Source of the DNA: Phycisphaerales bacterium
GTDB taxonomy: Bacteria > Planctomycetota > Phycisphaerae > Phycisphaerales > UBA1924
Assembly: GCA_020849105.1 (NCBI GenBank)
Contig: JADLGW010000042.1
Coordinates: 1 to 64,000 of the forward strand
Direction: 5' to 3'
Length of the DNA stretch: 64,000 nt
Shown: one piece after another, positions 23,730 to 36,725 of the stretch
Layout: each line of letters begins with the position of its first letter
Numbering within the stretch: position 1 is the first letter of the stretch
Translations under genes and position numbers: made by a program
The notes under the pieces: model-generated
What the model was told of the DNA's origin: nothing
Database searches by the model: none
The model's input: only the letters and a program-made list of their open reading frames with translations

Positions 23730-24119
23730 ATGGCAAAGCCGAATCTTGAACTCGGGTCCGCGGAACTGGAGGTGCTCAAGGTCCTCTGGGAGAAGGGCCC
23801 CTCGCCCGTGCGTGACGTGCTGGAGATCATGCACAAAAACGGGCGCCGCGTCGCGTACACCACCGTCCTGACGATTCTGACCCGCCTGGAGCAGAAGGGA
23901 ATGGTCGCCAGCGACCGCAGCGAACAGGCGTACGTCTACCGGGCCAAACTCAGCCGGCAGCGGGTGACCACGGCCCGGCTCCAGGCTCTCGTACGGGACC
24001 TGTACGACGGTGCTGCGGCGACCCTGGTGCTCGAGGTCGTCCAATCCGGCAAGTTCTCGCCGGAAGAGATCAGCCAGTTGCATCGCCTGATTGAGGATCT
24101 GGACGCCGGGGGCCGCTGA
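23730..24119 (+). CDS. BlaI/MecI/CopY-type transcriptional repressor
   Basis: Winged-helix repressor of 129 residues. The N-terminal DNA-binding domain reads LGSAELEVLKVLWEKGPSPV then VAYTTVLTILTRLEQKGMVA, the characteristic BlaI pattern; the C-terminal helix (about 85-125) would dimerise. In BlaI/BlaR1 systems the repressor is cleaved after the membrane peptidase senses a signal. Two palindromic operators lie just upstream, and the M56 peptidase gene follows after two bases, so the pair is one transcription unit. No beta-lactamase gene is in the window; the regulated target is unknown. Confidence 0.92.
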   Translation: MAKPNLELGSAELEVLKVLWEKGPSPVRDVLEIMHKNGRRVAYTTVLTILTRLEQKGMVASDRSEQAYVYRAKLSRQRVTTARLQALVRDLYDGAAATLVLEVVQSGKFSPEEISQLHRLIEDLDAGGR

Positions 24120-24121
24120 CC

Positions 24122-27100
24122 ATGGACGCTGCGCACGTCATCACGAACTGGTTGTGGCCCGCGGCCGTCGGGGCAATCCCGGTTGCGCTCGTGGTCGCCC
24201 TCGTGTGCCGCACGGGGTGGTGCCGGGCGGTCACACGGCACGCCCTGTGGCTGGTGGTGCTGGCGTGTTTCCTGGTGACTCCGCTGGTTCCGCCCCTGCG
24301 GCTGCCGGTGGCAACGGTCGGAACCCAAGAGGTTGCGGTGGATCGCGCGGCACCGGAATCGACCGTGGACACACGGGCCATGTCTGGGCTCGCAGGGTGG
24401 GCGGACAGGACGGAGCGGGAGGTCGCGGTGCTCACCCGAGAAGTCGAGGCGCCGCGTCCGGTGTGGTCGGCTGGGCCGTCGGCGGAGAGGGCGAACGCCA
24501 CACCGCTCCCCGGCGGCCGCAGTCCGGAAGGGTCGTCAGCAACACTTTCTCACGGTCGCATCTCCGATGTCCCGCCCGCGCCGACCCCGACCTTCACAGC
24601 GCCGCTGCCGCGACCGGGCGCAGCGGCAGAAGCGCAGCGTGCAGAAGCGCGGCAAGGTGTGAAGCCCGGGGGAGCCCCGCGGTGGGCAGAGTTGTGGATT
24701 GACACCGCGGCGTGGGGACGTTGGACGCCCAAGGTCCAGGCCCTGCGGGACGCGTTCGCGACGCTGCCGCCGCTGCCGACGCCATTGTGGTTGGGCGGCG
24801 GCGGGCTGATCCTGGCCGTCATCGCCGGGCGGACGCTGCGCTTCCGGCGCGTGCTCGCCCGGAGCGCTCCGGCCCCGGCGAGCGTGCGGCTGATGGTGCA
24901 GCGGGCAGCCAAGGAGATCGGGCTGAAGCGGACGCCCGCGGCCCTGATGACCGAGCAGCGTGTGTCGCCAATGGTCTGGTGCGGGCTGCGCTGCCGCCTT
25001 GTACTGCCCGCGGGACTGTGGGGCGAACTCGACGACCAGGGCCGCAGGGCCGTGATCCTGCACGAACTGGCCCACCTGCGCCGGCGCGACCACTGGGTAC
25101 GGTGGGCGGAACTCGCGGCGTCCGTGGCGTACTGGTGGCACCCGGTCGTCTGGTGGGTGCGCGGGCACCTGCGCGACGAGGCGGATCTGTGCTGCGACGC
25201 ATGGGTAACGGCGCTCTTACCCCGGGAGCGGCGGGCCTACGCGATGGCGCTGGTGAGCACGCAGTCGTACCTGAGCCGGAGTTCCGTCACGCCGCCCAGC
25301 GTGGGCATGGGCGTGATGACATCGTCCGCGGAGCGCTTTGCCAGGAGGTTGACCATGGTGATGAAGGCACGTCCGAACCCTCGCCTGTCGGCGCTGGGCG
25401 TCATCGCGTCGCTGGGCTTGGGCATTGTCGCCTCGTCGAGCGCTTCGCTCTGGGCCTGTCCGCCGGAAGATGAGAAGCCCGTGACGAGCGTTTCGCAGCC
25501 GCAGAAGCCGGCCAGGGCAACACAGGCCGGGGCCCCGAGGGCGGCCAGGGCGGCCGAAATGTCACGCGAGGCGGCCGCCGCCGCCTACGCCGCCGCCATC
25601 GCGGATTACAACGCCGCCGTGGGCGCTGGCCCGGCGCACGCCGCGGCACAGGCCGCCGAGCATAATGCCACGGCCGTCGCCGGCAGGGCCCACGCCGAGG
25701 CGCTGACCGCGGCCCGGCACGCCGAGCAGGGGGCTGTCCTCCACGCCCACGCGGGCCAGCCGTCAGCATCCCGAACCGGTGACTCTGACGCCCGGATCCG
25801 CGAACTCGAGGCCCGCCTGGAGCGGCTGGACGCCCAGATCGAGCGCCTCCAGGAGATGCTGGAGCGTTCCCGCAATGCGCCCCGCGGCCCGCTCTCGGTC
25901 CTGGCCCCGGCGCCGGCCGCTCGCGGGGGTGGCGTCGCGGTTCTCGCCGCGCCGTCCGCGCTGTCCGCGCCGTCCGCTCCATCGGCGCCGGTCCCGGCGG
26001 GCCGTAACGACGAGTTGCGCTCGACGCTGCGGGCCCTGGGCGGGGTGAGCATCACCACGCCGCGAGCGAGCACGCTCGGTCCGAACACCGTCACGCTCGG
26101 TGCGAACGCCGTGACGCTCGAAAGCCCGGCCGGGCAGCCCGGAGACGCGGTGCGGGTCTACAGGGTCTCCGGCGGCAAACTCCAGGCGTTGTGGAATCTG
26201 ATGTCACGCGACGACGTGCCGGTCGTGGTCTCCCAGGAGGAGGGCGGCATCGCCGTCCACGGCAACGAGGCCCAGCAGCGGGCGTTCAGCGCGTTCATCC
26301 GGATCATCAATCCTGAGGGCGCCGGCGATGAGGGTGCCGCGGCCGAGGCGGAGGGCCTCTACCGCATCGAAGTGCAGAACCTCGACGCGGTCCGCGGGCT
26401 GCATGAGCAGGAGGTGGCGCGGGCGCAGGAGCAACTCCACCGTCACGCGCAACTGCTCGCCGAGCGGTACGCAGAGGCCGCACCGCGGCTCCGGGCACTC
26501 CGATCTCTGAATGACACGCAGCGGCAAGAGATCGTGAACAAGATCAAGGCGGCCGAGAAGCAGGCTCGGGACATCAAGGTCCGCCGCCTGAACAGGGCCG
26601 ACGAGGCCAAGGTGCTGCTGGAACGCCTGCACCGGGATTCGCAGACCATCATCCAGGCCCAGGAGGCTGTCGCCCAGCAGAGTCTTGACCAGGCGGCAGC
26701 GCTGGGGTCGCGTGCCGACGGGCTGGAGGAGGAGGCCGCGCGGCTGGAACAGCAAGCGAGCGATCTGGCGGACCGAGCGGATCAACTGGCCGAAGAGGCC
26801 GGAACTCTCGAGGGTGAGGCTCGGGCCGCGGCTCAGCAGCAAGTCCGGGAACTCCAGGCCAAGAGCAAGGAGGCTTCCAAACAAGCCCGGTCCATCAGCC
26901 AGCAGGCTGATCAGGTGCGTCAGAGCATCGAAGCGATGGAAGAGGACGCGGACACCTGCCGGGAGGCGGCCGAAGAATCCTCCGACGCTTGCCCGGAGTG
27001 CAGCGAGCCCGCGGATTGCCCGGCACCCCCGGAGGAGGCACCCGAGCCCCTGGCAGTCATTCCTTCCGTCCCGGTGATGGAAGTCCCCGTGGCGTCTGGG

Positions 27101-27160
27101 GTTCCGACCCCGCCACCAGCGGAAATCCCCCCGGTTTTGCCCCCGGCGCTTCCGCACTAA
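24122..27160 (+). CDS. BlaR1-like M56 membrane metallopeptidase with long coiled-coil tail
   Basis: Integral membrane zinc peptidase of 1012 residues. Membrane segments lie at about 10-30, 38-60, 219-238 and 424-444. The zinc site HELAH is at 314-318, with DEADLCCDAW (E353) as the downstream ligand region. It should cleave BlaI on induction. Unlike classical BlaR1 there is no recognisable penicillin-binding sensor. After the last membrane segment there is an Ala-rich stretch, a heptad region (about 556-585, IRELEARLERLDAQIERLQE), a small domain at about 640-740, and a long coiled coil (about 750-945), ending in a Pro-rich tail. The stimulus is therefore probably not a beta-lactam. Confidence 0.85.
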   Translation: MDAAHVITNWLWPAAVGAIPVALVVALVCRTGWCRAVTRHALWLVVLACFLVTPLVPPLRLPVATVGTQEVAVDRAAPESTVDTRAMSGLAGWADRTEREVAVLTREVEAPRPVWSAGPSAERANATPLPGGRSPEGSSATLSHGRISDVPPAPTPTFTAPLPRPGAAAEAQRAEARQGVKPGGAPRWAELWIDTAAWGRWTPKVQALRDAFATLPPLPTPLWLGGGGLILAVIAGRTLRFRRVLARSAPAPASVRLMVQRAAKEIGLKRTPAALMTEQRVSPMVWCGLRCRLVLPAGLWGELDDQGRRAVILHELAHLRRRDHWVRWAELAASVAYWWHPVVWWVRGHLRDEADLCCDAWVTALLPRERRAYAMALVSTQSYLSRSSVTPPSVGMGVMTSSAERFARRLTMVMKARPNPRLSALGVIASLGLGIVASSSASLWACPPEDEKPVTSVSQPQKPARATQAGAPRAARAAEMSREAAAAAYAAAIADYNAAVGAGPAHAAAQAAEHNATAVAGRAHAEALTAARHAEQGAVLHAHAGQPSASRTGDSDARIRELEARLERLDAQIERLQEMLERSRNAPRGPLSVLAPAPAARGGGVAVLAAPSALSAPSAPSAPVPAGRNDELRSTLRALGGVSITTPRASTLGPNTVTLGANAVTLESPAGQPGDAVRVYRVSGGKLQALWNLMSRDDVPVVVSQEEGGIAVHGNEAQQRAFSAFIRIINPEGAGDEGAAAEAEGLYRIEVQNLDAVRGLHEQEVARAQEQLHRHAQLLAERYAEAAPRLRALRSLNDTQRQEIVNKIKAAEKQARDIKVRRLNRADEAKVLLERLHRDSQTIIQAQEAVAQQSLDQAAALGSRADGLEEEAARLEQQASDLADRADQLAEEAGTLEGEARAAAQQQVRELQAKSKEASKQARSISQQADQVRQSIEAMEEDADTCREAAEESSDACPECSEPADCPAPPEEAPEPLAVIPSVPVMEVPVASGVPTPPPAEIPPVLPPALPH

Positions 27161-27271: not shown

Positions 27272-30200
27272 ATGCGACGCCCCCTCTCTGCCCCCCTCTC
27301 TCTTGCCGCTCTTACCCTGTCTCTCCTGTCCGCCAGCGCCCATGCCCAGCCCGCGGGGTCGGGCCTCCGCTCGTTCAACACCGCGAGCGGCCTGCTCTCC
27401 CGCGGCATGAACGACCTGGCCGCGGAGGAGTACCGCAAGTTCCTGTCTGAGCACGGCGACCACGAGAAAGCCCCGACCGCCCGGTACGGCCTGGCGGTGG
27501 CCCTCTTCCGGATGGGAGATGCAAAGGGCGCCGAGGGGGAACTCGAGCAGATCGCGGACGATCGCAACTTTGAGTTTGCCGCCGAGTCGCGGGTGCTCCT
27601 GGGGCAGTGCCGGCTGGCGTTGGGCGAGAACGCCGGGGCGGCCGAGGCCTTTCGTGAAGTCCTGAAGCGGTACGGATCGCACGATCTGGCCGACGACGCG
27701 GCCGGGCTGCTGGTGGAGGCTCTGTACCGCGACGGCGACTATGACGGCGCGCAGAAGGCCGCGGCGGACTACGAAGCCAAGTGGCCCGGGGCGGCGGGCC
27801 ACGACCGGGCGGACCTGTTCCGCGGCATGGCGGAACTGGCGACGGGCGAACCCGCGAAGGCGGCGGACCGGTTCGACGCCCTCGCCGGGCGGGCGAAGGA
27901 CACCGACCTGCGCGACCGTGCCGCGTTGCTTTCGGCGCAGGGGCGCCACCGCGCGGGCGACACGGACCGGGCCGCCGGGCAGTACCAGGCGGTGATCGAC
28001 TCGGGCTCCGCGTTTGTGCCCGATGCGCTGCTGGGGCTGGCGGCGCTGAGGCACGAGCAGGGGAAGGCCAACGAGTCCGGTCCGCTGCTGGACCGGCTGC
28101 TGACGCAGTACCCCAAGTCGGCGGTGGCGCGCGACGCGATGCTGCGGCGGGGGCGGGTCCGCATCGACCTGATGGACTACGACCGCGCGATGCAGGACTT
28201 GCAGGCGGTCCAGCAGGCCGCAAAGGGCGAGGACGACGAAGCGGCGTACTGGATCGCCAAGTGTCACCTGCGGGCCGGCCGCCCGGAACAGGCGGCGACG
28301 GCGCTCGCCGAGGCGGTCGAGAAGTTCCCGAAGTCGCGGCTCGCGCCGGAGATGCGGTACGACCTGGCGGTCGCGCAGACGCGCGCCGGGCAGGACGAAC
28401 AGGCGCTCCGGACGATCGCCGAGTTCAAGAGCCGATTTGCCGACAACCCGCTGGCGGCGGAGGCCACACACCTGGCCGCGGTCGTCCATCACCAACGCAA
28501 GGAGTATGACGCGAGCCTCGCGGCGTGCCGCGAGTTCGAGGCCAAGTACAAGGACCACACCCTGCTCCCCGCCGTCGAGTTCCTTGCGGCGGAGAACCTG
28601 CTGCTGTCCGGGCATGATGCCGACGCCGCGGCGGCGTACGCGGCGTTCCTGGAGGACCACAAGGCGGATGAGCGCGCCGACAAGGCGGCGTTCCGGCTCG
28701 GTTCGGCGCTGCACCGTCTGGGAAAGCCCGACGAGGCGGAGCCCTACCTGGCCCGCGTCGCCAAGGGCAAGGACACGTCCCCGGAGTTCCGCACGTCGTT
28801 GCTGCTCCTCGGGGACATTGCGTTCGGCAAGGGTGACTGGCCGGCGGCCCGCACCTACCTGACGGAGTACACATCGCTCGGGCTCGACCAGCCGTCGGCC
28901 GACGATGCGCTGCTCAAACTGGGCCTCGCGGCGGCGCGGCAGGGGGACCACCCGGCGGCGATCGCGTCGTTTGACACGCTGCTCTCGAAGATGCCCCGGA
29001 GCGAGCAGTCGCTGCAGGCGCGGTTCGAGCGGGGCCAGTCGCTGGTGGCGCTGGGCCGCACGGACGAGGCCGCGTCGGAGTTCCGGCAGGTGCTCGAACA
29101 GGCGCCCGACTCACGGTTCGCACCGTACGCCCACAACCACCTGGGCGCGATCGAGTCGGCCAAGGGCAACCAGGACGAGGCGGTGAAGCACTTCCAGGCC
29201 GCGGGTAACGCCGGCGGAGACCTGGAGGCCGATGCGCTCTTCCGAGAGGCGCTGGCGCACGCGGCGGCGGGGCGGCACCAGGAGGCGTTCGACGCGTTCT
29301 CCAAAATGGTCGATCAGTTCGGCACCAGCCCCCGGGCGGGCGAGGCCGCGGCGCGCCGGGCGATCGAGTTGTCACGGCTCGGGAAACCGGCCGAGGCGCT
29401 CAGGGCGCTCGACGCGGCGAAGCGCGACGGGCTGGACGCGCGGCTGAAGGATGCACTGGATTACGAACGTGCATGGTGCCTGCGGCAGACGAAGCAGACG
29501 GACAAGGCGGCCGAGGGGTACAGGGCGCTGATCCAGCCCGGGCACGACGCGACGCTGCGGCTGTTCGCGATGACGGACCTGGCGGAGATTGACGCGGACG
29601 CCGGGCGGCACGACCGAGCGGTCGATCTGCTGGGAAGCGTGAGGTCGGCCGGGAAGGAGGTCCCGGCCGATCTCCGCGCTCGGGCGACCTACCTGCTGGG
29701 CGTTTCGGAGTTTCGCCTGGAGCATTTCGACAAGGCGGCGGCGCTGATGGATGAGTTCCTTGCCGGCAAGCCCGGGGCGCTCGGGCCGTCGGCCCTGCTG
29801 GTGTCGGGCGAGTCGCAGTTCCGCCTGGCGCGGCACGAAAAAGCCGTCGAGCGGCTGCGGCAGGTGGTGGAGAAGCACCCGGATGACCCGGCGGCTCCGA
29901 CGGCGATGCTGCGCCTGGGTGAATCCCTGGCCGCGCTGCAGCAATGGAGCGAGAGCGAGCGGGTCTTCGAGGCCTACCTGAACAGATACAAGGATTCGGA
30001 GTTGTGGTTCCAGGCCCGCTTCGGGCTGGGGTGGGCGCGGGAAAACCAGTCGAAGCCCGAGGACGCCATCGCCTGCTACCGGGAGGTCGCGGAGAAGCAC
30101 GAGGGGCCGACCGCGGCGCGGGCCCAGTTCCAGATCGGCGAGTGCCTCTTCGGCATGGGCAAGAACGAGGAAGCGGCCAAGGAACTGATGAAGGTGGACA

Positions 30201-30406
30201 TCCTGTACGCCTACCCGGAGTGGTCCGCGGCGGCACTCTTCGAGGCCGGGCGGTGCTTCGAGGCGATGGGTGATCCGGATCGGGCGCGGGCGCAGTACCA
30301 GGCCGTGATCGAGCGGTTCAAGGACAGCAAGTGGGCGCCGCAGGCCACGCAGCGCCTCGCGGCCGTGAAGCAGGCCCCGCTGCCGGGCCGCCCGGGAGGT
30401 GGATGA
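27272..30406 (+). CDS. Secreted tetratricopeptide-repeat protein
   Basis: Predicted periplasmic scaffold of 1044 residues. It has a clear signal peptide (about 1-26, LSLAALTLSLLSASAHAQ) and then almost nothing but TPR-type helix pairs of 34-36 residues, for example AAEEYRKFLSEHGDHEKAPT, ALGRTDEAASEFRQVLEQAP and DYDGAQKAAADYEAKWPGAA. The pattern of degenerate repeats resembles YbgF/CpoB and BamD-type proteins, which bind partners in the periplasm. Its stop overlaps the ATG of the ExbB-like gene, and ExbD and a propeller protein follow, so it belongs to a Tol/Ton-like cluster. The C-terminal 15 residues are a short Pro/Gly tail. No enzymatic motif is visible. Confidence 0.88.
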   Translation: MRRPLSAPLSLAALTLSLLSASAHAQPAGSGLRSFNTASGLLSRGMNDLAAEEYRKFLSEHGDHEKAPTARYGLAVALFRMGDAKGAEGELEQIADDRNFEFAAESRVLLGQCRLALGENAGAAEAFREVLKRYGSHDLADDAAGLLVEALYRDGDYDGAQKAAADYEAKWPGAAGHDRADLFRGMAELATGEPAKAADRFDALAGRAKDTDLRDRAALLSAQGRHRAGDTDRAAGQYQAVIDSGSAFVPDALLGLAALRHEQGKANESGPLLDRLLTQYPKSAVARDAMLRRGRVRIDLMDYDRAMQDLQAVQQAAKGEDDEAAYWIAKCHLRAGRPEQAATALAEAVEKFPKSRLAPEMRYDLAVAQTRAGQDEQALRTIAEFKSRFADNPLAAEATHLAAVVHHQRKEYDASLAACREFEAKYKDHTLLPAVEFLAAENLLLSGHDADAAAAYAAFLEDHKADERADKAAFRLGSALHRLGKPDEAEPYLARVAKGKDTSPEFRTSLLLLGDIAFGKGDWPAARTYLTEYTSLGLDQPSADDALLKLGLAAARQGDHPAAIASFDTLLSKMPRSEQSLQARFERGQSLVALGRTDEAASEFRQVLEQAPDSRFAPYAHNHLGAIESAKGNQDEAVKHFQAAGNAGGDLEADALFREALAHAAAGRHQEAFDAFSKMVDQFGTSPRAGEAAARRAIELSRLGKPAEALRALDAAKRDGLDARLKDALDYERAWCLRQTKQTDKAAEGYRALIQPGHDATLRLFAMTDLAEIDADAGRHDRAVDLLGSVRSAGKEVPADLRARATYLLGVSEFRLEHFDKAAALMDEFLAGKPGALGPSALLVSGESQFRLARHEKAVERLRQVVEKHPDDPAAPTAMLRLGESLAALQQWSESERVFEAYLNRYKDSELWFQARFGLGWARENQSKPEDAIACYREVAEKHEGPTAARAQFQIGECLFGMGKNEEAAKELMKVDILYAYPEWSAAALFEAGRCFEAMGDPDRARAQYQAVIERFKDSKWAPQATQRLAAVKQAPLPGRPGGG

Positions 30407-31155
30407 TGGCTCCGGCTGGATTCGTGACGCTCGCGCAGGACGCCGCGAACCCCATTGTCGCGGGCGGGCAGCTGCACTCGGTGTGGGACTTCATCGTCAA
30501 GGGCGGGCCCACGATGGGCGCGATCATCGCCTGCTCGCTGGTGGCGCTGGCGGTGGTAGTGGAACGCGCGATCGTGCTGCGCCGGAAGGCGGTCATCCCG
30601 CCCGGGTTCCTCGAAGGGCTGGAGGCGATCGGCGGCGACCGGCAGCGGGCGCTGACGTACTGCGAAGCGAGCGGGAGCCCGGCCGGAGCGGTGCTCGCGG
30701 CGGCGATCCGGCGGCGCGGACAGCCGGAGGCTGCGGTCGAGAAGGCCGTCGAGGACGCGGGGCGGCGGGAACTGATGCGGCTGCGCAAACGGGTGCGCCT
30801 GCTCGGCGTGCTGCCGCAGGTCTCGACGATGCTGGGGCTCCTGGGCACGATCTTCGGGATGATCAAGACGTTCCAGGCGATCGCGGTGTCCGGTCAGGCC
30901 CTGGGCAAGACGGAACTGCTCGCCAAGGGCATCTTCGAGGCATGGACGTGTACCGCCGCGGGCCTGCTCGTGGCCATCCCGGTGATGATCGCGTACCACA
31001 TTGTTCTCGGGAAGATCGACGGGTTGATCGTTGACCTCGACAAACTGGCCGTGGACTTCGTCGCGGGTGAGCACGCGCGAGCGACGCGCCCGGCGGCCGT
31101 GGCCGAGGCTGTGCGCGAGCCGTCACCGTCGCTGTCCCCCGCGGGGGCCGTGTAG
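30406..31155 (+). CDS. MotA/TolQ/ExbB proton channel family protein
   Basis: Channel subunit that would couple the proton gradient to periplasmic work. The 249-residue product has three membrane segments (about 30-50, 130-155 and 180-202). The family signatures are LLGVLPQVSTMLGLLGTIFG with MIKTFQ following, and FEAWTCTAAGLLVAIPVMIA. GGGAGG at 30394-30399 supports ATG 30406, with ATG 30403 as the alternative; both overlap the TPR gene's stop. The ExbD partner begins 9 bp after its stop. The three-segment layout and the adjacent ExbD identify it as TolQ/ExbB rather than a flagellar MotA. Confidence 0.92.
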   Translation: MAPAGFVTLAQDAANPIVAGGQLHSVWDFIVKGGPTMGAIIACSLVALAVVVERAIVLRRKAVIPPGFLEGLEAIGGDRQRALTYCEASGSPAGAVLAAAIRRRGQPEAAVEKAVEDAGRRELMRLRKRVRLLGVLPQVSTMLGLLGTIFGMIKTFQAIAVSGQALGKTELLAKGIFEAWTCTAAGLLVAIPVMIAYHIVLGKIDGLIVDLDKLAVDFVAGEHARATRPAAVAEAVREPSPSLSPAGAV

Positions 31156-31164
31156 GGGCGCGCC

Positions 31165-31575
31165 ATGCTGATCCGCGAGTCCGACGTTGAGAACGGGATC
31201 CACATCGACTTCGTGCCGATGGTGGACGTGCTGTTCAACCTGCTGATCTTCTTCCTGCTGGCGACCACGATCGCGCAGGTGGAGCGGGAGATGCAGATCG
31301 CGCTCCCGTTCGCCCAGTCGGCGGGGCCGATCTCCTCGGCCCTGAAGGAGATCGTTGTCAACGTGGACTCCGGCGGACGGCTCTTCCTTTCCGGGCGCGA
31401 GGTGACGCCCGAGGGCCTGAAGGAGACGGTCGCGCAGGCTGTGGCCGCCAACCCGCAGCAGAAAGTCACGGTGCGGGGCGACCGGACGACAACCTACGAG
31501 AACATCGTGCGAGCGCTGGACGTGTGCAAGTCGGCGGGGGTGCAGCAGCCGTACCTGGATACGGTCGTGCAGTAG
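31165..31575 (+). CDS. ExbD/TolR family protein
   Basis: Single-pass partner of the ExbB-like channel, 136 residues. The membrane segment at about 17-40 (FVPMVDVLFNLLIFFLLATT) contains the conserved Asp of ExbD/TolR (D21), which takes part in proton transfer. A periplasmic domain follows, with VNVDSGGRLFLSGREVTPEG and VTVRGDRTTTYENIVRALDV typical of the family. Close spacing to the neighbours indicates one operon. Together with the TPR and propeller proteins it suggests a Tol-like rather than a simple nutrient-uptake system. Confidence 0.93.
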   Translation: MLIRESDVENGIHIDFVPMVDVLFNLLIFFLLATTIAQVEREMQIALPFAQSAGPISSALKEIVVNVDSGGRLFLSGREVTPEGLKETVAQAVAANPQQKVTVRGDRTTTYENIVRALDVCKSAGVQQPYLDTVVQ

Positions 31576-31601
31576 GCCCCAGAGGAGAGCCGGAGGGAGC
31601 G

Positions 31602-34600
31602 GTGAAGCGGTTCGGGGTGTGGATCGTGCTCGGAGTCGCGGCCCTGGCCCTGGTGGCCGGGGCGTCGCTGCTCTGGTACACGACCCCCCGGTCGGTGGGG
31701 GTGCTCACCGACGGCGACACGATCCGGCTCGACGCGGGGGGCAGGGATCCGTCGCGTCCGATCCTGTGGCAGCCGGCGGCACCGCTGCCCTCCCTCGTGA
31801 ACTCCGGCCGGCCGGAATACGAGCCCCGGTTCAGCGAGGACGGCAACACGCTGTTCTTCGTGCGCGGCAAGGCGGGCGGCAACGCGGACATCTACGAGAG
31901 CACGCGGACGTTCGACGGGTGGAGCGAGCCCCGTCCCGTGGACGCGGTGAACACGGGCGCGGACGAACTGGGGCCCTGCCCGTCGCTGGACGGACGCGAC
32001 CTGTACTTCTACAGCAACCGGCCCGGCGGGCAGGGCGGGTACGACCTGTGGGTGTCGCACCGCCAGGACGGTGAGTGGCTGGCGCCGACGAACCTGGGCT
32101 CGGCGGTCAACTCTTCGCTGAACGACTACGGCCCGGCGGTGTCACCCGATGGGAAGCGGGTCTACTTCGCGTCCAACCGTCCGCGACCGAGCGAGGAGGG
32201 CCCGAACCAGGAGGCCTGGTCAGCGACCCTTCGCGAACAACTGTACCAGCACGATTACGACATCTACGCGACGACTCTCGGCGCCGACGGGGCGTCCGCG
32301 GCCGAGCCCGTGCCCGCGCTCAACTCGCCGCGCGACGAAGGGGCGCCATGCGTCGCGCCGTTCGGGGACTTCGTCTACTTCGCGTCCGACCGTGAGGGGG
32401 GGCTCGGCGGGCTGGACCTGTACCGGGCGCGCCTGCGCGAGGGCGTGCCCGGCGTGCCGGAGAACCTGGGGTCCGCGGTCAACTCTTCCGGGAACGACCT
32501 GGACCCGGCGCTGACGATGGGCGGGTTTGCGATCTATTTCAGTTCGGACCGGGACCTGCCCGCCGAGTTGGAAGGCGCACGCGACACCCCCCTGCCGCAG
32601 GAGGCGGGCGGGGCGCCCGCCCGGCACGATTACAACCTGTTCCGGAGTTTCAGCCGCGAGATCTACCGCGATTCGCGGATGGCACGGCGGGCGGTGAACT
32701 GGCCGGCCATCGGCAACGCGCTGCTGCTTCTTGTGCTGCTGGCATTGCTGGGCCTGCTGCTGTGGATGATCGCCCGGGCCCGGGCGAGCGATCGATTCCA
32801 CAAACTCGGCCTGTTTGCCAAGTGCATCCTGGCGTCGCTCCTGATCCACTCGCTGCTGCTCCTGCTCCTGGCGTTCTGGCAGGTTGGGTCGGCGATCCAG
32901 GGCCTGCTCCAGCACTCCAGCGGCACTCGCGTGGCACTGACGAGCGGGCACGGGAGCGATGCGCTCACGACCCAGGTCCGCGGCGGGCTGACGGAGGTAT
33001 CAATCACGACTTCAGCGCCGGCGCCGGAGGCGGCGCAGATTCCCGGGGCAATGCCGACGGTGGACACGGCGCGGCTCACATCGACGGAGATCAATCTGGC
33101 GGCACGTCCGGAGGCGCCGCGGACGGCAAACGACTCCCGGCCGGCGGTCGAGGGTCCGACGCGGACCGCCGAGGCGCCCGGCACGGTGGCACAGAGCGTG
33201 AAGGCCCCGGATGCCCCATCGCCGGAGTCCGTGCGTGAGGTCGCGGCAGCGGTGGGGGTGGTGGCCCGTGCCGATGCCACGCCGCGGGCGATCGAGAGGG
33301 CGGACTTGCGCCACGCTGACGCGGCCGCCGTCGCCGCGCCCGACACCCACACCGCCCCGGCACCGCTCCAGTCTGCCGCGAGCCCTCCGCCATCAGACGC
33401 CTCGGCGCCGGGGGCCCCGCACGCCGCACCCGCGGAGGTCGCGACAACGGCGCCCGCCGAAGTGGGCGTGACCACTCCCGCACCCGCGGGGGCGGTGCGG
33501 GCGAGTGAGCCCGGTGCCGCGGTGGCGGCGGTTGGGGCCGCCCAGTCCGACCGCCCGGCCCTCGCGGGTGCGCCCGCGCAGGAGCGGGCCGCGATCACCC
33601 CGGCGGGCGCCGCACCCGCGGCCACGCCGCTCGCCGCGGCGCAGGCTTCCGACACCCCTTCCGCGAACGTCGCGGAATTGGGTGCGACTGATGCGGGGCG
33701 GGCCACGCCCGCCGCGGGCGCCCCGGCGCTCACGGTCGACACCCCGGCCACAGCCTCCCCGGCACCGGCCACGGAGGCGTCCGCTTCCGTCGCAACACGG
33801 AGCGGCGGCGCGGCCAACACAGAGCGTCCCGCGGCACCTGTGTCAGCCGCACAGGGGGAGGTGTCCGTCGCCGCGCTCGCCGCGCCGCGTGCGGCCACGG
33901 ATACGCCGACGGCCACGCTCGCGCGTCCCGTCGCATCCGATGTCACAGCACCGGGCTCGGAATCCTCGCTCACGAGTGCTGCCAAGTCGGTTCCCTCAAC
34001 CGCCGCCGGCGTCGCCACAACCACGCCCGCCGCGCCAGCGCAGACGGTTGCCGCGGAGCAACCGACGATCGTCCGGACGGCCGCGCCGAGTGCCGGCGAT
34101 GCGCGCGGCCGCCCCGAGACGCCGCGGGCCTCGCAGGGCTTGTCTCCCGACATGGTCTCCATGAACACGGGTCGCGTGGAGTCGGGTGTTCCCGCGGCTT
34201 CGATGGCGACGGCCCAGACGGACGACGCCCGGACGGCAGGGACGCGGGTCAACGCTGCACCCACGGCTGGGCCATCGGCGGTACCGGCCCCAGTGTCCGG
34301 TGTTGCGTCGCCAAAGCCGAGCACGGCGGCCGCGGTCGCGGAACTCGCCTCGGTGGTGCGGGCGGCCTCCCAGGAGGCGAGCGATGCACGGGGCCGGCCC
34401 GATGCGCCGCGTGCTTCGGATTCGAAGTCACCAGAACTCGCGCTGGTTCCCATCGAACCGGTCGCTGGCACGACGCCCGTATCTGTCGCCGCGGCCACGG
34501 CGGGCGACGTTCAGAATGGCAGTGTGCCGGGATCGGCCACCGTGGTCGCGGCACCGAACGCCGCGCCGACCCTCGGCAACCTCGCTTCACCCAGGGCGTC

Positions 34601-36725
34601 GGCGGCCCCTGAGTCGGCCGAGCCGAGTCCGGTGGTCCGGGTCGCCGCGGATGGGGCTGGGGCACGTTCGACGAACCCAACCGCGCCGGCGTCCAGCGCT
34701 GGAACCGCCACGACGCTTGCATCGCTATCCCCCGCGGACGTGCGAACCGTGGCGACCGTGATGCCGTCTCCGGTGGAGAGCGCGGTGGAGGTCACGGAAC
34801 CATCCCCGTCGTCCGCCGACGGCTCGGTGGATGTAACTCCGGCACCCGTGCCGGGCACGGGGGTTGCGGCGCCCCCATCGTCCAGGGCGCCCGGGGCGAG
34901 CGAGGTGGGCCTGTCCGTAGCCATTCCTCGGGCTGCCGCGGGCACCGCACGACCCGGCACGGCCGGCGCGAGCCCGGGCGCCGGGGTCGCGGTGCTCCCC
35001 GCTCCGCGGGCCCCGACGGCACCGCCCGGCGCACTCGAATCGGCAAGGGCCGTGGATGCTCCGGTCTCGGTTGCCGCGCTGGACTCAGCCGCGGCGGCGC
35101 CACGGACGGCGGGTGTTCATGCCACGCCGGGAATCGTGGTCGCGGCGCCGGCTTCGGCTGGGCCGTTGCCGCCCGGGTCCGAGGCGGACATCCACGGGTC
35201 GCTCCGGGCCGCCGATGCCGACTTCGGAGCCAGACCGGTGGCGCCAGCCTCCGACAGCGGCACCGGTTCCGTGTACGGCATCGCCGCCGAGCGCACACGC
35301 ACCTCCGCGCAGGCTGTGGACGCCCCGGCATCTCCCGGTGATGCGCCCGATGATCGGGCTCTGGGCCCGGCAGTCCCGAACGCGCCGCCCGCTTCATCCG
35401 GAGCCGGCATCGCCCTGGCCCAGCCGCTGTCCGGCAATCGGGCCGCGGCACGCGCCGCCGGTGAGGCCGCTGCCCGAGTTGACGCCGCCCCCGCCGCGGG
35501 GTCACTCGCGCCGCGTCTTTCGGATACTGCACCGGCATCGTGGTCGGCGGCCCGGGCATCCGTCGTGGAGCCCGGTCGTGCCGTGCTCGCAGCCGCGGCC
35601 ACGATCGGGACCGAGGAAGCCCGCGACTCCACCGCGGCCGCTTCTCGGGCAACGGGCCCGGTCCAACGGGCGTCGCCTGATCTTCCTCACCCTCCCGCCC
35701 TGGCGGTTCCGAACGATGCGGGCGGGATCGCACCGCAGCGCACCGCGAGCCGCGAAGTGGAAGCGCCGACGCTCCTTCTGGCGGCCCCCGCTGCGGGAGT
35801 GCGCTCCACCACGCCGGCCCCGGCCGCATCCGCGCGGGGGCCGGAGCGAGTGGCCCTCGCGCCGGAGTCGTCCGTGTCGAGCCCGGTGTCGCGCCCGCTT
35901 GGAAGGTTCCTTGCCGCCCCGGATGCGGCCTCGGTCGCCGCGCTCGGCTTCCGCCGAGACGGGGACGTGGCGATGGATGTCGCCCCAGCAATGGCGATCC
36001 CCCTGCCGGGCCCGGATGCTGCGGCCATCCCCAACCCTCGCGGCACGCTGAGCGGGGTCGTCCTTGACGCCTCGAACAGCGAACCTCTCGTGGGGGCCAC
36101 CGTCCGACTGGACATGCCCAGCGGCGACCCCGTGATCGTGCAGTCGGGCGAGGGCGGGCGATACATGCTGGAAGCCTCGGGCCTGCCGGATCATGTGGCC
36201 GTGTCCGCCTCGCACGAGGGGTACACCCCGGATTCGGCCAGCATTGCCTCGGACGACCTGCTGGCGGGCGCCCGTCACACCTTCCGGCTTGCACCGACGG
36301 AGCGCGGCACGATCGCGCTCGAGGGCGACCCGGAGGTCCATCACCTGGGCAACGATGAGTTCGAGGGACGGATCAACAGCCAGTTTCAGAAGCCGAGCGA
36401 AGGGCTGGTCTACGAGGCCGTGTTCAGGCTGAGCGCGGACCAGGCGCCCCCGAATGTCTCCAGGGCGGAGATCGTGATGCTCGTGCGCGGGGCCCAGGCG
36501 CCCAACGAAATCCGCATCAACGGCTGGCTGCTGGACCAGCGGATCGACGAATCCCCTGACGACGGCTCCTTCGGTGAGTTCCGGGCCGCCATCCCTGTGC
36601 AGGCGCTCGTCCGCGGCGATAACGCCATTACCATCCGCTCGCGGCGCGGCAGTTCGGACCTGGACGACTTCGAGTTCGTCAACGTTCGTGTGCGCCTGGC
36701 CCGTCCCGCGTCACGAGTTGAGTAG
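31602..36725 (+). CDS. Giant membrane protein: PD40 propeller, two TM helices, long disordered region, C-terminal carboxypeptidase-regulatory-like domain
   Basis: 1707 residues from GTG 31602 (GGAGGG at 31592-31597). In order: an N-terminal membrane anchor (about 7-26); a five-bladed-looking PD40/TolB-type propeller (about 60-340) with repeated SPDGKRVYFASNRP-like blades (LDGRDLYFYSNRPGGQGGYD, FGDFVYFASDREGGLGGLDL); two membrane helices (about 369-390 and 404-426); roughly 1000 residues rich in Ala, Pro, Thr, Ser and Val with no expected fold (about 440-1460); a carboxypeptidase-regulatory-like beta domain (about 1480-1565, GTLSGVVLDASNSEPLVGAT); and a final beta domain (about 1570-1705) with a jelly-roll flavour. 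It is the last gene of the ExbB-ExbD cluster. The layout suggests a TolB-like sensor fused to a TonB/TolA-like periplasm-spanning arm. The function is inferred. Confidence 0.8.
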   Translation: MKRFGVWIVLGVAALALVAGASLLWYTTPRSVGVLTDGDTIRLDAGGRDPSRPILWQPAAPLPSLVNSGRPEYEPRFSEDGNTLFFVRGKAGGNADIYESTRTFDGWSEPRPVDAVNTGADELGPCPSLDGRDLYFYSNRPGGQGGYDLWVSHRQDGEWLAPTNLGSAVNSSLNDYGPAVSPDGKRVYFASNRPRPSEEGPNQEAWSATLREQLYQHDYDIYATTLGADGASAAEPVPALNSPRDEGAPCVAPFGDFVYFASDREGGLGGLDLYRARLREGVPGVPENLGSAVNSSGNDLDPALTMGGFAIYFSSDRDLPAELEGARDTPLPQEAGGAPARHDYNLFRSFSREIYRDSRMARRAVNWPAIGNALLLLVLLALLGLLLWMIARARASDRFHKLGLFAKCILASLLIHSLLLLLLAFWQVGSAIQGLLQHSSGTRVALTSGHGSDALTTQVRGGLTEVSITTSAPAPEAAQIPGAMPTVDTARLTSTEINLAARPEAPRTANDSRPAVEGPTRTAEAPGTVAQSVKAPDAPSPESVREVAAAVGVVARADATPRAIERADLRHADAAAVAAPDTHTAPAPLQSAASPPPSDASAPGAPHAAPAEVATTAPAEVGVTTPAPAGAVRASEPGAAVAAVGAAQSDRPALAGAPAQERAAITPAGAAPAATPLAAAQASDTPSANVAELGATDAGRATPAAGAPALTVDTPATASPAPATEASASVATRSGGAANTERPAAPVSAAQGEVSVAALAAPRAATDTPTATLARPVASDVTAPGSESSLTSAAKSVPSTAAGVATTTPAAPAQTVAAEQPTIVRTAAPSAGDARGRPETPRASQGLSPDMVSMNTGRVESGVPAASMATAQTDDARTAGTRVNAAPTAGPSAVPAPVSGVASPKPSTAAAVAELASVVRAASQEASDARGRPDAPRASDSKSPELALVPIEPVAGTTPVSVAAATAGDVQNGSVPGSATVVAAPNAAPTLGNLASPRASAAPESAEPSPVVRVAADGAGARSTNPTAPASSAGTATTLASLSPADVRTVATVMPSPVESAVEVTEPSPSSADGSVDVTPAPVPGTGVAAPPSSRAPGASEVGLSVAIPRAAAGTARPGTAGASPGAGVAVLPAPRAPTAPPGALESARAVDAPVSVAALDSAAAAPRTAGVHATPGIVVAAPASAGPLPPGSEADIHGSLRAADADFGARPVAPASDSGTGSVYGIAAERTRTSAQAVDAPASPGDAPDDRALGPAVPNAPPASSGAGIALAQPLSGNRAAARAAGEAAARVDAAPAAGSLAPRLSDTAPASWSAARASVVEPGRAVLAAAATIGTEEARDSTAAASRATGPVQRASPDLPHPPALAVPNDAGGIAPQRTASREVEAPTLLLAAPAAGVRSTTPAPAASARGPERVALAPESSVSSPVSRPLGRFLAAPDAASVAALGFRRDGDVAMDVAPAMAIPLPGPDAAAIPNPRGTLSGVVLDASNSEPLVGATVRLDMPSGDPVIVQSGEGGRYMLEASGLPDHVAVSASHEGYTPDSASIASDDLLAGARHTFRLAPTERGTIALEGDPEVHHLGNDEFEGRINSQFQKPSEGLVYEAVFRLSADQAPPNVSRAEIVMLVRGAQAPNEIRINGWLLDQRIDESPDDGSFGEFRAAIPVQALVRGDNAITIRSRRGSSDLDDFEFVNVRVRLARPASRVE

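Follow-up and report, generated by a model that had tools for sequence, protein, structure and literature searches.

Force transducers that end in a vWA tip instead of a TonB or TolA tip were proposed in 2025, and were found to be encoded together with TPR, tolQ and tolR genes in PVC bacteria (Williams-Jones et al. 2025; PMC12204202). In TonB and TolA themselves, cryo-EM has shown that a Ser/His pair contacts a Ser and a Trp in TM1 of ExbB/TolQ, linked to a Pro in TM3 (PMC12215075). The window (the whole stretch of 64,000 nucleotides which we analysed) comes from a planctomycete genome of 3.3 Mb that is 93.8% complete and has a Phycisphaera mikurensis MAG as its nearest named match. It holds a locus with a related set of motor genes, of which we found no description in the open-access literature searched, the 2025 force-transducer paper being the only relevant one. 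We argue that this operon probably encodes a PMF-driven trans-envelope force transducer, in which a propeller is fused to the energised helix. The features of the locus are as follows.

23730-24119, + strand: BlaI/penicillinase-repressor-type regulator (PF03965, 5.5e-29), in a conserved position; partner upstream in most Phycisphaerae loci
24122-27160, + strand: M56 (BlaR1-like) membrane peptidase with a long C-terminal extension (PF05569, 1.5e-28)
27272-30406, + strand: periplasmic TPR protein, 1044 aa, with a signal peptide and no lipobox
30403-31155, + strand: ExbB/TolQ-like motor subunit (PF01618; PDB TolQ match, 2.4e-13)
31165-31575, + strand: ExbD/TolR-like subunit (PF02472, 1.6e-26)
31602-36725, + strand: giant putative transducer, 1707 aa
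31605-31682, + strand: TM1 or signal anchor of the giant, residues 2-27 (AF2 helix)
31743-32669, + strand: PD40 (TolB-type) beta-propeller, residues about 48-356 (PF07676; Foldseek)
32700-32786, + strand: TM2, residues 367-395 (AF2 helix, hydropathy)
32811-32897, + strand: TM3, residues 404-432, with the motif C408-x3-S412-x3-H416 (conservation)
32925-32945, + strand: conserved V-x-L segment, residues 442-448, a motor-box candidate (conservation)
32919-36038, + strand: Ala/Pro/Ser/Thr-rich low-complexity periplasmic arm, residues 440-1479
36039-36299, + strand: CRD/transthyretin-like domain, residues 1480-1566 (AF2, structure match)
36303-36713, + strand: CBM-like beta-sandwich or 'GRINSQFQ' domain, residues 1568-1704 (structure matches; 18-member alignment)

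The TPR, ExbB, ExbD and giant genes follow one another on the same strand with gaps of -4, 9 and 26 bp. The ATG at 30403 gives the ExbB gene an ATGA overlap with the TPR gene, into which the alternative GTG start at 30331 would also reach. Pfam (MotA_ExbB 2e-24, ExbD 2e-26, PD40 1.5e-30) and NCBIfam agreed on the ExbB, ExbD, TPR and PD40 identities, and Pfam and the gene calls bore out the coordinates and identities which an earlier, sequence-only reading had assigned within 27272-36725. That reading had also called the TPR protein CpoB-like; the signal peptide and the many TPRs stand, while the likeness to CpoB comes down to generic TPRs. The BlaI and M56 genes lie 5' of the four-gene set on the same + strand and are part of the locus in most Phycisphaerae. 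The M56 peptidase (24122-27160) carries a coiled-coil-like C-terminal extension running about 560-600 residues past the peptidase domain.

Viewed as a single sequence, the giant is an odd protein with a low-complexity arm, and it might be taken for a chance fusion or a mis-assembly flanked by unrelated genes. We searched for relatives with the propeller-hairpin region as query and, at the E-value thresholds applied, matches were obtained in 14 of the 61 nearest genomes, in 49 of 248 genomes of the class sample and in 25 of 392 of the phylum sample, counts which include a few propeller-only matches. Since this distribution is patchy at both class and phylum level, the role of the operon is not essential to the lineage. 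PD40 matches at L033 and L034 and those from Bacteroidota were rejected as propeller proteins outside the giant family. The order TPR-ExbB-ExbD-giant was found on one strand in all 32 class-level loci, with the TPR gene immediately 5' of ExbB each time (32/32), and seven of the nine phylum-level loci held the four genes plus a toroid, the remaining two starting or stopping at a contig border. Thus the gene order, for which a search across Planctomycetota had been suggested earlier, recurs throughout the class-level loci and at phylum level wherever the contigs allow. The ExbB proteins beside the giants were 30-61% identical to the window ExbB, and the two other ExbBs of the source genome 26-28%. 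As 30 full-length relatives from many families share both the single-ORF architecture and the operon, chance fusion, mis-assembly or unrelated neighbourhood is refuted, and we leave it a negligible probability.

The giant is linked to its motor genes by a Ser-x3-His motif which had gone unmentioned in the earlier reading. In an alignment of 31 sequences, whose other members are 35-51% identical to the window giant, TM3 carries C-x3-S-x3-H with the Cys in 29, the Ser in 30 and the His in all 31, and H416 is the sole fully invariant residue of the hairpin region. Phylum-level members carry the TM3 motif as well, some of them with Ala in place of the Ser. The second half of the SHLS signature is weak, as Leu occupies H+7 in 15/31, and its second Ser at H+11, mostly replaced by Q, E or K, was not seen in the 31 sequences. 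Just after TM3 a V-x-L segment is conserved (V444 in 26/31, L446 in 25/31), for which AF2 gave a pLDDT below 50 and predicted no strand; judged by its sequence, it may correspond to the motor box of PMC12204202. On the motor side, the pore residues T149 and T184, P193 and the TM1 residue S45 of ExbB were invariant in 42/42 sequences, and so was the transmembrane Asp21 of ExbD (42/42); S45 was matched to the Ser of TolQ by a manual reading of the helix, the PDB alignment leaving out TM1. Where E. coli has the His-contacting Trp, TM1 of ExbB has Leu, Val or Met. The docking helix of TonB and TolA is N-terminal, whereas that of the giant would be internal. Taken at the level of sequence, the motor genes are complete, the docking motif is under strong constraint and the tip is of a binding type.

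From its N-terminus the giant runs through TM1, the PD40 propeller, a two-helix hairpin and the low-complexity arm to a folded tip; a direct search of the whole protein against sequences of solved structures gave no match. The AF2 model of residues 1-463, built from 31 sequences, had a pLDDT of 82.8 and placed helices at 2-27, 367-395 and 404-437 around the propeller. The spacing between TM1 and the propeller is only about 20-30 residues in this model, and there is no TolB N-terminal alpha/beta domain. When the propeller was searched against the PDB with Foldseek, ranks 1-11 were all TolB structures, while by VIA-align TolB scored Z 18 and the GH43/GH62 propellers slightly higher (range Z 18-21). 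Because these other propellers score so close, the TolB likeness rests on the PD40 sequence and on Foldseek, not on Z alone, and with a PD40 match of 1.5e-30 and the top Foldseek ranks the propeller is of TolB type, as had been proposed. Against the TolB family model TIGR02800 the propeller protein scored 19.6 bits, the cut-off being 343. Being tied to the inner membrane, the propeller cannot shuttle in the manner of TolB; keeping a partner in place at the base is the more likely function.

The loop between TM2 and TM3 has a mean net charge of about +3.9 and both flanks are near 0, a count made on 30 members, L023 having contributed no loop value. It follows that the hairpin loop lies in the cytoplasm and the arm in the periplasm. 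A cytoplasmic arm, which the sequence-only reading had named as the finding that would undo its proposal, is ruled out by this bias. The same reading had taken the system for a coupling machine of its own kind that unites TolB-like and TolA/TonB-like parts in a single chain, an idea well supported by the gene order, the topology, the TolB matches and the Ser-x3-His motif.

The propeller region also matched the models of PorE and CHU_0125 (2e-32 and 7e-35), which would fit an ExbBD-powered machine for secretion, surface motility or adhesion, comparable to PorE and gliding, with the propeller-CRD part as its scaffold. However, at 112 and 121 bits the matches fall far under the respective cut-offs of 600 and 620 bits, the giant has no counterpart to the OmpA domain and lipidation of PorE, and around the locus we saw no recurring genes other than the core and M56/BlaI. 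We therefore hold such a machine to be very unlikely.

The arm is 27% Ala and 13% Pro and almost devoid of Lys. In the window giant it is about 1000 residues long, and in the relatives about 260-690. The extreme length is thus peculiar to the source species and not a conserved property, and the earlier suggestion that a long arm suits the wide planctomycete periplasm draws no support from conservation. The stretch 32919-36038 is over twice as long as is typical of relatives, and no clear internal repeats account for the expansion; repeats as its source were rejected, since a single weak repeat of 34 nt was all that we found.

The AF2 model of the tip was confident (pLDDT 90.8, mostly above 90 in the CRD) and agrees with the carboxypeptidase-regulatory-like and second beta domain predicted earlier at the C-terminus. 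The first of these matched carboxypeptidase D with Z 13.2 over 79 aligned residues (rmsd 1.6) and the N-terminal extension of SusC (9hfj) with Z 11.1; by profile, CarbopepD_reg_2 gave 0.034 in the window giant and 9.7e-09 in the relative L035. The last domain matched BcsB (Z 10.6, 117 aligned, rmsd 3.5) and CBM35 (Z 9.5, 107 aligned, rmsd 2.5). Among the 30 full-length class-level relatives, 24 have a squalene-cyclase-like alpha-toroid at the tip and 17 have CRD plus beta-sandwich; 11 have both, with the toroid placed first. CRD plus beta-sandwich without a toroid was seen in the window giant and in six relatives. No toroid remnant was present in the window giant, and the only toroid detected in the source genome lies on contig C23.

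Alpha-toroid proteins are also found outside these operons. In 22 of the best 30 examined across Planctomycetota (L140-L169) a TM helix with S-x3-H precedes the toroid, and a genome may contain up to 19 copies. They may be a large group of transducers, so far unrecognised, that are driven by ExbBD. As direct neighbours of ExbBD they were rejected, for within flanks of 1.5 kb ExbD was nearby in only 2/30.

The folds at the tip bear on whether the arm could instead energise an outer-membrane transporter, e.g., for glycans, through its CRD and CBM-like domains, as a Ton-like importer would; the resemblance of the CRD to the SusC extension and of the last domain to CBM35 and BcsB speaks for this. 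Against it, the conserved locus has no transporter gene, and in the source genome neither a TonB-dependent-receptor plug (E<=0.01) nor a TonB C-terminal domain was detected, so that we consider an importer quite unlikely. Profile searches for TonB_C, TonB_2 and the TolA C-terminal domain found none in the source genome, although at 94% completeness absence is no proof, and the lack of a TonB C-terminal domain reported for the giant thus holds for giant and genome alike in Pfam. No TolB over the family cut-off was found in the genome either. The absence of Pal, on the other hand, held for the locus, the contig of the window giving no match to OmpA, and failed for the genome, which encodes two Pal-like OmpA-domain lipoproteins, both outside the locus.

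Further motor loci were noticed in the source genome. An operon of the published vWA type, with ExbB, ExbD and an S-x3-H helix joined to VWA_3, lies at L040:5490-8867 (contig C48), and L041 is a MotA/MotB-like locus. At L042:7542-9216 (contig C26) an ExbB gene is followed by two ExbD genes, with no recognised S-x3-H transducer nearby.

The genes 5' of the operon suggest another function. M56 and BlaI are the sensor-repressor pair of the BlaR1 system, and an M56 gene, mostly with BlaI, lies directly 5' of the operon in 23/32 class-level loci. The propeller, toroid or CBM-like tip could then read the state of the envelope, an ExbBD-like channel gating on tension and signalling to M56 and BlaI. 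Yet the four-gene core is retained in the nine class-level loci where M56/BlaI was not found and in the phylum-level loci, where the pair is not in position; full conservation of the pore threonines and of the proton-binding Asp is what a working motor would show; and M56/BlaI may merely regulate the operon. An envelope-stress sensor is therefore rather unlikely in our view.

In the force transducer which we favour, ExbB and ExbD would form an inner-membrane motor on which the giant docks through TM3 (S412/H416), as TonB and TolA do. The motion would travel along the flexible periplasmic Ala/Pro arm to the folded tip, and the tip (CRD and CBM-like here, alpha-toroid or both in relatives) would grip a partner associated with the outer membrane or the cell wall. 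The propeller at the periplasmic base of the inner membrane and the large TPR protein most likely bind or position this putative partner. The task is likely to be the upkeep of the outer membrane and envelope, a role favoured because no TonB-dependent receptor was detected, and this is the least certain step.

More tentatively, the operon could give Planctomycetota a third kind of PMF-driven envelope system, in addition to Tol and Ton, with the propeller covalently on the energised helix and an exchangeable tip cassette, pulling on glycans of the cell wall or outer membrane and possibly replacing Tol-Pal where TolA is lacking. If so, the stand-alone S-x3-H alpha-toroid proteins of the phylum would be further transducers on shared ExbBD motors. 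What is new here is that the vWA tip is joined by a second tip of unrelated architecture, that a propeller and a motor helix occur on the same chain, and that the operon is conserved across Planctomycetota. For planctomycetes that lack TolA and TonB, this offers a possible way of energising the outer membrane that can be tested, and it suggests that evolution recombines motor, arm and tip as modules.

With Tol-Pal the system shares a TolQ/TolR-like motor, an S-x3-H helix with a periplasmic arm, a propeller of TolB-type fold and a periplasmic TPR protein. However, the giant's propeller is membrane-anchored and fused to the transducer, whereas TolB is separate; the giant lacks the TolB N-terminal and TolA C-terminal domains, and the locus lacks Pal. 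Although its propeller is TolB-like, the giant is not TolB. With TonB-ExbBD it has in common ExbB, ExbD, an S-x3-H helix and a proline-rich arm, but the TonB C-terminal domain is missing from giant and genome, and no plug domain was found. Its sequence suggests that it works like TolA and TonB, yet by the C-terminal domain it is not a member of either family. PorE and CHU_0125, the fused CpoB-TolB-CRD-Pal lipoproteins of Bacteroidota, likewise combine a PD40 propeller and a CRD on one chain with a TPR partner, which in the giant operon is a separate gene; PorE, a lipoprotein of the outer membrane, carries an OmpA domain and lacks a motor helix, whereas the giant has neither an OmpA domain nor lipidation. 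The vWA transducers share with the giant system the TPR, TolQ-like and TolR-like genes, the Ser/His motif, a disordered linker and a tip that is neither TonB nor TolA. They differ in having a vWA tip, of which Pfam found no match among the nine giants scanned, in place of the toroid and/or CRD plus CBM, a pair of ExbD genes against one, and an arm of about 100 residues against 260-1000, and the giant has a propeller and two extra TM helices before the motor helix. Tol-Pal is thus a more distant match than the vWA transducers with their TPR, TolQ and TolR partners (PMC12204202), which are the nearest known kind.
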